Assembly: GCF_000718775.1 (NCBI RefSeq)
Contig: NZ_JOCB01000013.1
Coordinates: 62,001-126,000, forward strand
Direction: 5' to 3'
DNA: 64,000 nt
Origin: Streptomyces sp. NRRL S-31
GTDB taxonomy: Bacteria > Actinomycetota > Actinomycetes > Streptomycetales > Streptomycetaceae
Shown piece by piece: positions 35,054 to 37,357 of the stretch (within the stretch, counting starts at the first letter, position 1; the number at the start of each line of letters is the position of its first letter). Under the pieces are notes generated by a model. It saw nothing but the letters and a program-made list of their open reading frames with translations, did not search any database and was not told the origin of the DNA. Position numbers and translations under genes: made by a program.

Positions 35054-35347
35054 CTACCGCTGGTCGGGCCAGGTGGCCAGCACGTCGGCGGTCCGCTCGT
35101 CGGTCAGGGTGACGCGGGCGCCGGGCAGACCGCCGTACTCGCCGACCCAGCGCCGGAACTTGTCCCGTGCGACCTCCTCACGGCCCCACCACCCGTGCTG
35201 AACCGGCCGGCCGTCGGCGGAGAGCAGCAGGTGGTAACGGCCTCGGCCGGTCCTGCCGGGCGGCTCTTCCGGTCCGGCCCGCGCGTGCGGACGGTCGCGG
35301 CCGCCCTCGCGGGAGCGGGCCGCGCCGGAAGGCTCCTCATGAGGCAC
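35054..35347 (-). CDS. small hypothetical protein coupled to polymerase gene
   Basis: A 97-residue protein. The first 35 residues are Arg/Gly/Pro-rich; the rest looks folded (RYHLLLSADGRPVQHGWWGR, then FRRWVGEYGG and TLTDERTADVLATWP). The family is unknown. Its ATG overlaps the end of the Y-family polymerase gene by 11 bases on the same strand, so translation is coupled and a repair-related role is possible. Confidence 0.65.
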   Translation of the reverse strand: MPHEEPSGAARSREGGRDRPHARAGPEEPPGRTGRGRYHLLLSADGRPVQHGWWGREEVARDKFRRWVGEYGGLPGARVTLTDERTADVLATWPDQR

Positions 35348-36242
35348 GGCGGAAGGGCAGGACCGCGGCCGGACCGATCGAGGCGGGGCCGAACCGGTCG
35401 CGGACGCGGTCCATGGCCTGTTCGGCCATGAGACGGGATTCTCGCGTGGTGTCCAGGCTGATCTGCTCGGTGACCCGACCGGCGTCGACGAGGTCCTCGG
35501 CCCTCAGCGCGATGCCGGTCAGCCGGGCGCGCTGGAGGCCCGCCGCGTCCATCAGCCGGTAGGCGACGGCACGCAGGTCCTGGTCATGGGCCGAGGGCTC
35601 CGGCCCTGGACGGCGCCACGGTCCGCGCCGCCCTGCTCGACCTCGTCGTCCGGCTCGGTCCGCTCGTACGGCGGCGGAGGCCGGCAGTGTCTGGGGAACG
35701 ACGGGGCGGGGATCGACGCCGCGGGCCCGGTCGGCGGCGAGGCGGCCGGCCCTCCTGCCCAGCAGGCGTTGCACGGTCGCCGGGGAGACGGCGGCGAGCC
35801 GCCCGACGGAGTGCATGCCGTAGTCGCGGAGCGCCGCGGCCTGACGGGGGCCGATGCCGTGCAGGGCCCGCACCGGCAGCGGCCCGAGCCAGTCCGCGAC
35901 CCGCCGCGGTGCGACGGCGAGCACGCCACCGGTCCCTTCGACCTGGGCGGAGGCGGTCGCGGCGACCGTGATCGTCGGTCCTATACCGACCCGGACGTCG
36001 ACGCCGAGCCGCGAGACGGTCCGGACGCGGAGCATCTCACCCAGGTGGGCGGCGTCGGTGCCGTGGTAGTGCAGGGCGCCTTTCAGGTCCACGAGGGCGC
36101 AGCCCGGGGGCAGGGCCTGGACGACCGGGGACAGCCCGGCCAGTAGCTCCAGCACCTCCCGGTAGACATCCTCCGGCAGCCGGTCGGGGCAGCACACGTG
36201 CATCACCACCGACTGCCCAACCCGCGACGCGTCCTTGTGCAT
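35337..36242 (-). CDS. rearranged Y-family DNA polymerase-like protein (DinB/ImuB type)
   Basis: A 301-residue protein related to Y-family lesion-bypass polymerases: MHVCCPDRLPEDVYREVLEL, SPVVQALPPGCALVDLKGAL, the helix-hairpin-helix LHGIGPRQAAALRDYGMHSV and ERARG-like DRARGVDPRPVVP, then a little-finger end PEPSAHDQDLRAVAYRLMDA and ISLDTTRESRL. The first catalytic acidic residues of true polymerases are missing, as in ImuB-type proteins. Between PASAAV and PEPSAHD the frame is open but nonsense (Arg/Gly-rich). The expected helix is readable there only on the opposite strand, so the gene carries an internal inversion plus deletion and is probably non-functional. ATG 36242 follows GGGAGG. Confidence 0.8.
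   Translation of the reverse strand: MHKDASRVGQSVVMHVCCPDRLPEDVYREVLELLAGLSPVVQALPPGCALVDLKGALHYHGTDAAHLGEMLRVRTVSRLGVDVRVGIGPTITVAATASAQVEGTGGVLAVAPRRVADWLGPLPVRALHGIGPRQAAALRDYGMHSVGRLAAVSPATVQRLLGRRAGRLAADRARGVDPRPVVPQTLPASAAVRADRAGRRGRAGRRGPWRRPGPEPSAHDQDLRAVAYRLMDAAGLQRARLTGIALRAEDLVDAGRVTEQISLDTTRESRLMAEQAMDRVRDRFGPASIGPAAVLPFRRAS
35603..35677 (+). other. inverted segment of the polymerase gene
   Basis: Read on the plus strand, this stretch encodes ALDGATVRAALLDLVVRLGP then LVRRR with 23 of 25 third positions G or C. This is the first helix of the little-finger domain expected in the minus-strand gene at exactly this point. On the minus strand the same bases give only ADRAGRRGRAGRRGPWRRPG. 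A local inversion is the simplest explanation; about 25 further residues of the domain are missing. Confidence 0.7.
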
Positions 36243-36268
36243 CGTCTTCACCTCCCACCATCCACGTT

Positions 36269-36418: not shown

Positions 36419-37357
36419 TCACGCCGTACGGGGCCGACGGCCCGGAGTCTTCTTCTCGGCCGTCTTCCGGGCGGCCGTCCGCTTCGCCGCGGTCTTCTCG
36501 GCCGGCTGCTTCTTCGCTGCCGCCTTCTTCGCCGGCTTCGGCAGCTCGCGCACCTCCGCGGGGCCGGTGTCCCCGGTCCGGGACGCCTTGGCCTTCTGCA
36601 CCGACTGCTGCAACGCCGCCATCAGGTCCAGCACCTGCGCGGGTTCCTCCGGCGCGGGCGCCTCCGGCAGCGGCTTCTCCTCCCGCTTGGCTTCGATGAT
36701 CCGCGCGATCGCCTCGGTGTACCGGTCGGTGAAATCGGGACCCTCCAGCGCGTCGACGGTCATCGTCTCCATGAGGGCGAGCGCGCCGTCGATCTCCTGC
36801 TCCGACACCTCGGCCGGCGCCGGCAACAGTTCGGAGGGATCGCGGATCTCGTCCGGCCAGCGCATGGCGTGCAGCACCAGGACGTCGTCGCGTACGCGCA
36901 GGAGCCCCAGCCGCTCGCGGCCGGACCAGGCGTACTTGGCGACCGCCACCTTCGAGGACCGCGCCAGCGCCTTGGCCAACAGCTTGTACGGCTTCGCCGC
37001 GACCTGGCCGGCTGGCTGGAGGTAGTAGCCCTCGGCGATCCGGATCGGGTCGACCGACTCCAGCGGCACGAACGCGTCGATCTCGATCGCCTTGGCGGTG
37101 GGCAGGGGCAGGTTGCTCAGATCCTCGTCCGTGATCGGGATGACCTGTGTCCGGGTCAGCTCATAGCCCTTGCCGATCTCGTCCTGGGAGACCTCCCGGT
37201 CCTCCAGCTCGCACACCTTGCGGTAGCGCACCCGCCCCTGATCGGCCAGGTGGTACTGGTGGAAGCGGATGCTGTGGTCCTCGGAGGCGCTGACCACCTG
37301 GATCGGCACCGTGACCAGGCCAAACGTGATCGCGCCGGACCAGATCGTTCGGGGCAT
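36419..37357 (-). CDS. ku: Ku, DNA end-binding protein
   Basis: Homodimeric Ku binds double-strand breaks and recruits ligase D in bacterial non-homologous end joining. The 312-residue protein starts MPRTIWSGAITFGLVTVPIQ, the invariant Ku start, and has FHQYHLADQGRVRYRKVCEL, ITDEDLSNLPLPTAKAIEID, VLVLHAMRWPDEIRDP and MTVDALEGPDFTDRYTEAIA. After the core of about 260 residues comes a Lys/Ala-rich tail, as in the long actinobacterial Ku proteins that bind DNA more tightly. AAAGGTG precedes the ATG. No ligD is in the window. Confidence 0.96.
   Translation of the reverse strand: MPRTIWSGAITFGLVTVPIQVVSASEDHSIRFHQYHLADQGRVRYRKVCELEDREVSQDEIGKGYELTRTQVIPITDEDLSNLPLPTAKAIEIDAFVPLESVDPIRIAEGYYLQPAGQVAAKPYKLLAKALARSSKVAVAKYAWSGRERLGLLRVRDDVLVLHAMRWPDEIRDPSELLPAPAEVSEQEIDGALALMETMTVDALEGPDFTDRYTEAIARIIEAKREEKPLPEAPAPEEPAQVLDLMAALQQSVQKAKASRTGDTGPAEVRELPKPAKKAAAKKQPAEKTAAKRTAARKTAEKKTPGRRPRTA

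Follow-up and report, generated by a model that had tools for sequence, protein, structure and literature searches.

The window analysed here, a stretch of 64,000 bp from Streptomyces sp. NRRL S-31 whose own numbering is used throughout, contains on its minus strand a damaged copy of a Y-family-polymerase-like gene. The closest relative of its product among the matches listed is P0001, the 337-aa product of gene ACE1SV_00850 of Streptomyces sp. E-15. The ATG at 36242, which the initial annotation had taken as the gene start, agrees with the start of P0001; a longer mechanical ORF begins at a GTG at 36251 and encodes 304 aa. The features of the locus are as follows, with columns numbered as in the family profile.

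35337..36242, minus strand: damaged copy of a Y-family-polymerase-like gene, 301 aa from the ATG, a Streptomyces-type homologue
35665..36242, minus strand: intact left (N-terminal) part, reaching family column 49 and ending GCC GTA CG; 96% identity with P0001 residues 1-194
35603..35664 (near-ties 35603/35604/35605 to 35664), plus strand: inverted piece of ~62 bp, placed by profile and orthologue scores
35337..35602, minus strand: intact right (C-terminal) part, 98% identical to P0001 residues 247-337, beginning PEPSAHDQDL
35664..35665, no strand: junction 1, column 49 joined to column 130 reversed, 0-1 bp shared
35602..35605, no strand: junction 2, column 69-71 reversed joined to column 218-220, ~2 bp (GC) shared
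35054-35347, minus strand: ORF of 97 aa overlapping the end of the gene by 11 bp

A polymerase-like family in Streptomyces

The protein search returned 626 relatives in all, and the best 120 of the 626 are from Streptomyces wherever an organism is given. P0001 is the one sequence compared here from a 90% identity cluster of four members, and the two alignments used 24 and 32 of the best 120 relatives (A1 and A2, respectively). The HHH motif is present in the window protein (Pfam IMS_HHH, PF11798; E 3.2e-06, 27.5 bits, cut-off 24.4) and there are sequence matches to solved Pol IV and REV1 structures. The family, whose members have ~335 aa, begins to fit Pol IV models only at about profile position 61. 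Its motif PPxxAL aligns with SCDEAL of REV1, in which we take the DE pair to be catalytic, and an acidic pair (D or E at the two x) occurs in none of the 25 aligned members. The family is thus like DinB/Pol IV in having the HHH motif and, in the aligned relatives, an IMS_C little finger, and unlike DinB/Pol IV in that the 25 aligned members have no active-site acidic pair, the window copy being also without the little finger. Judged by its sequences, the family (P0001-P0120 and the window gene) would appear to be an offshoot of the Y family in Streptomyces that has lost catalytic activity, and it is found on plasmids as well. The plasmid records that match it number 46, all from Streptomyces.

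The upstream neighbour of the gene is a ku gene (36419-37357, minus strand). Among 57 genome loci of the family, ku lies within the flank (up to 6 kb, some flanks being cut by contig ends) in eight; the linkage recurs, but with this low count there is no general operon, and a functional link to ku was rejected. The 97-aa ORF at 35054-35347 has no Pfam match; relatives of it were found in four of the 57 loci, in two of which (L024 and L068) they lie at or just behind the gene end.

An inverted piece between two deletions

The comparison with orthologues rests on 110 loci, 52 of which were parsed by one motif expression; the other 58, outside the motif, include broken or partial copies and distant DinB paralogues as well as the loci of the window itself. 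Some genomes are present among the 52 through both of two collections, and distinct 249-bp segments number 41. The initial annotation had read the plus strand of 35603-35677 as ALDGATVRAALLDLVVRLGP followed by LVRRR and had proposed a local inversion of about 75 bp together with the loss of about 25 codons, the frame staying open. The plus-strand reading is present, with G or C at 23 of 25 third positions by our count, and the coding strand of the gap is an Arg/Gly-rich run with an open frame (no stop). The inversion itself and the loss of codons with the frame open were borne out, whereas the sizes were not: the inverted piece measures ~62 bp, and 36 codons are missing. The difference in the former lies in LVRRR (35665-35677), which stands outside the flip: it is the last, unflipped bases of the left flank (GCC GCC GTA CG) read in antisense, where they happen to resemble the Arg-rich end of the helix.

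Several lines of evidence establish the reversed orientation. The plus strand of 35603-35664 encodes ALDGATVRAALLDLVVRLGPL, with all 21 of 21 residues identical to P0001, and a search with P0001 against the window's own genome gave a weak third match over the gap on the plus strand (E 0.0059). Over a span of 25 codons from codon 191 of the coding strand, GC rises to 0.92 at position 2 and falls to 0.52 at position 3. In DNA comparisons with the 52 parsed orthologue loci, the segment scored 49-97 when flipped versus 15-28 in the coding orientation, without exception (52/52). The inverted middle by itself reaches 74.1 bits on the orthologue profile; 100 shuffles of its bases gave -24.4 at best. 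A model composed of left flank, inverted middle and right flank scores 153.1 bits, which is 74 bits above a deletion with an unrelated insert (79.0); the scores for a forward copy of the middle and for a plain deletion are 45.2 and -23.0 bits, respectively. A local inversion is therefore confirmed at a level far beyond chance.

The direction of the change is also clear. When orthologues were aligned with the flipped segment, as the initial annotation had recommended, the relatives proved to carry the ALDG helix on the coding strand: this is its position in P0001 and the 52 parsed orthologue loci, which gives the ancestral order, and in the best 120 of the 626 relatives the helix is matched within the protein itself. 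An Arg/Gly stretch shared by orthologues, which would have spoken against an inversion, was looked for and none was found. A search with this region alone returned only P0001 and P0038, both of which have the ordinary helix; the Arg/Gly piece was thus met in no other protein of a database that is clustered at 90% identity and would hide a scarred sister inside the P0001 cluster. Of the 110 loci, only the two that are the window's own contain either junction string. No nearer DNA relative was found at a limit of 1e-170 in a genus search centred on another genome (best 20 of 392 genomes); these 20 had been covered before, and the sample is probably largely unchanged. The best 120 of 1226 matches of a Ku protein search contain no separate E-15 entry. 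One further match to the inverted piece, G165:C2:10147197-10147252, has 93% identity to it over 56 bp and gene flanks of 75-78% identity, a contrast that may stem from strong constraint or from an exchange of the segment encoding the helix.

The amount of DNA lost can be stated closely. From DPRPVV to SAHDxDL there are 249 bp (83 codons) in 51 of the 52 parsed loci and 246 bp in one, compared with 141 bp (47 codons) in the window, a net loss of 108 bp or 36 codons. Of this, 19 bp (columns 50-68) are missing on the side of junction 1 and 89 bp (columns 131-219) on the side of junction 2. The left flank holds to 35665 and the right flank restarts at 35602-35604 (columns 218-220), and the inverted piece ends at 35603, 35604 or 35605 (columns 69-71), positions that lie within 0.7 bits of one another. 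The Ala of P0001 at the helix start favours 35603. Both breakpoints were placed to within about 2 bp from a profile of more distant relatives and, for E-15, from the protein sequence. A search of the window's own assembly at E values up to 1 turned up no match to the lost codons at another place.

Origin of the rearrangement

The initial annotation had offered three origins, namely a recent mutation, an assembly artefact and a switchable segment. Of these, a mutation fits best, one that occurs in this genome alone among the sequences examined. The reversed columns 69/71-130 stand in place of the longer region between column 49 and column 218/220, and this pattern of deletion, inversion and deletion is that of the 1-3-2-4 class of short-range template switch. 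According to PMC7954356, the reverse complement of a shorter stretch takes the place of a larger region in such events, with too much lost for reconstruction. The window scar is similar in that information has been lost irreversibly; it differs in that the events described there are from great ape genomes, with deletions capped at 50 per event, whereas here 108 bp are missing from a bacterial coding gene with an open frame.

Our preferred reading, which we hold to be fairly probable, is that the ~62 bp were reversed and the 19 and 89 bp lost most likely in one short-range template switch that likely destroyed the little finger. A nascent strand would have halted after GTACG, paired with the opposite template ~80 bp ahead, and copied ~62 nt backwards on it before rejoining the original template ~170 bp beyond its point of departure, potentially guided by ~2 bp (GC). 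The frame would have stayed open since the number of bases lost is divisible by three and there is, by chance, no stop in the flipped GC-rich piece. The template switch is preferred because one continuous event accounts for all four switch points. Several observations weigh against it, however. No significant prior inverted homology exists at the first switch point, the junction overlaps of 0-2 bp would fit end joining equally well, and PMC7954356 overturns an earlier view of 1-3-2-4 as the most common type of event and considers large deletions unconvincing under its own model.

The result on inverted homology comes from the 41 distinct orthologue segments. Arms at switch points 1-2 had a mean of 8.12 matches out of 20 versus 5.91 in control position pairs, 6.9% of which reached at least this value, and arms at points 3-4 had 7.2 out of 20 versus 5.84, with 16.5% of control pairs at least as high. 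One of ten arm tests (points 3-4, 10 bases) stood at 4.8%, uncorrected for ten tests. With no significant inverted homology at the switch points, a quasipalindrome-driven switch is unsupported. PMC7202029 and PMC6357072, on quasipalindrome-associated switching in E. coli, describe, as proposed here, replication-based template switching in a bacterium, but with imperfect inverted repeats, of which we found no significant example at the window scar. PMC3161906 interprets complex inversions and duplications found in starving E. coli as the outcome of repeated template switching. The template switching in yeast coding genes outlined in PMC8604942 is alike in inverting a spacer within coding sequence and in clustering amino-acid changes; it differs in involving short inverted repeats and at most five neighbouring replacements, versus ~21 codons flipped and 36 lost in the window gene.

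A close rival, which we rate as somewhat unlikely, is that a short fragment was released by double-strand breaks and, after loss from the ends, put back in flipped orientation by non-homologous end joining. Joining of a flipped fragment would yield the same product as the template switch, and the loss on both sides of the inverted piece and the overlaps of 0-2 bp fit this account. According to PMC5124664, Streptomyces have multiple NHEJ-like genes and NHEJ leaves nucleotide additions and deletions. In addition, the product of 36419-37357 is a Ku protein (PF02735, E 4.1e-43), and with ku as the upstream neighbour the end-joining machinery may be at hand. Against it stands the need for two breaks within ~170 bp and the re-ligation of a piece of only ~62 bp.

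An artefact of assembly or library preparation, with a consensus that took in a chimeric read or amplification product, is decidedly unlikely. Library preparation is known to yield inverted chimeras with short overlaps and the assembly is in 322 contigs, but the contig is at least 126 kb long and the scar stands ~97 kb into it, away from the edge, and the 108 bp would need to have dropped out of the consensus. Six further residues specific to the window protein, mostly at conserved sites, suggest true decay. No second close copy of the gene that could have been mis-joined was found in the assembly, the other matches there being 33-42% identical, and a mis-joined paralogue was rejected on that ground.

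Reversible inversion by a site-specific recombinase, the third of the origins offered, has next to no probability. In its favour, the window gene does have a short in-frame segment inverted within an open frame. Inspection of the edges (35540-35760) for inverted repeats gave five imperfect pairs, none linking 35603 to 35664; one of them, 35583-35593 with 35601-35611 (82%, 11 bases), forms a small local hairpin spanning junction 2. The segment cannot flip back: repeats linking its two edges are lacking, and a search of the assembly turned up the lost DNA at no other place. A reverse flip would thus not restore the gene, and orthologues are likewise without significant inverted homology at the same points. 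Site-specific inversion and phase variation are ruled out by the absent edge repeats and the missing 108 bp. The resemblance to the bacterial invertible segments described in PMC5903667 is limited to a short DNA segment in reverse orientation, as the window scar, unlike those segments, has edges without repeats and is not reversible. The scar is irreversible and of an ordinary mutational kind, not a switch.

Consequences of the scar and its meaning

The little finger of Y-family polymerases has the element order beta-alpha-beta-beta-alpha-beta. The same order is predicted for P0001 (beta 189-200, alpha 203-223, beta 228-237, beta 242-253, alpha 256-270, beta 277-285) in what is a weak model, with a mean pLDDT of 69.1 and a pTM of 0.40. 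Based on this prediction, the end of the first beta strand, the first alpha helix and the second and third beta strands would have been lost or flipped in the window protein. The model of the window protein, built on 25 sequences, is weak as well (mean pLDDT 55.7, pTM 0.39), and its residues 181-269 have a pLDDT below 50. The Pfam little-finger domain IMS_C (PF11799) was identified in 24 of the 25 aligned members, the exception being the window protein. The event is thus predicted to have likely cost the protein its DNA-gripping little-finger domain and to have likely inactivated it.

That the frame remained open is no evidence of function because such events commonly leave it open. Random events of the same geometry did so in 16,258 of 20,000 trials and random events of free size in 5351 of 20,000 (27%). 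The exact event, when imposed on orthologues, left 39 of 46 frames open (the 47 genes used for the frame and residue comparisons include 46 of the 249-bp length). An argument for selection from the open frame is therefore ruled out.

Outside the gap, the window protein differs from P0001 at six of the 271 residues compared, the first 11 residues and window residues 196-217 being left out. The rarer residue is on the window side at all six, for example R20C at a site that is 98% Arg. Most of 21 control pairs of similar distance were mixed, with one pair, P0010/P0011, at four to zero. The skew of six out of six, a small number, suggests relaxed constraint and decay of the gene, and the window gene is probably decaying. 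It is very unlikely that selection has kept the altered protein as a new form that uses only the part before the little finger. Such a form could be read from the open frame of 301 aa and from a C-terminal stretch still 98% identical to P0001; opposed to it are the frequency with which such events leave frames open and the conserved residues among the window-side changes.

Decay may not be confined to this copy. A single open frame spans at least 310 P0001 residues in 40 of the 57 genome loci; two of the remaining loci span 280-281 residues and 15 span fewer than 250, some of them at contig ends. Partial or broken gene matches lie inside contigs at L062, L067, L068, L071, L073-L077, L079 and L080. 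The partial and broken copies suggest frequent decay of what would be an accessory gene.

The class of mutation is known, and the window supplies a nearly base-resolved case of deletion, inversion and deletion inside a bacterial coding gene. A much wider generalisation, to which we give little credence, is that template switches reshape bacterial genes stepwise without inverted repeats, that the scars in high-GC genomes often remain open, and that the window gene is a first step towards a new, part-antisense polymerase-like protein. Where the net loss is divisible by three, most frames remain open, and about a quarter do so even when sizes are free, so that gene callers would treat the scarred gene as a normal one. 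A hidden flip of this kind can show itself as an internal stretch of Arg/Gly codons in which GC3 is low. Scanning for segments whose reverse complement fits the orthologues would provide rates of such mutations in Streptomyces and a test of their mechanism.
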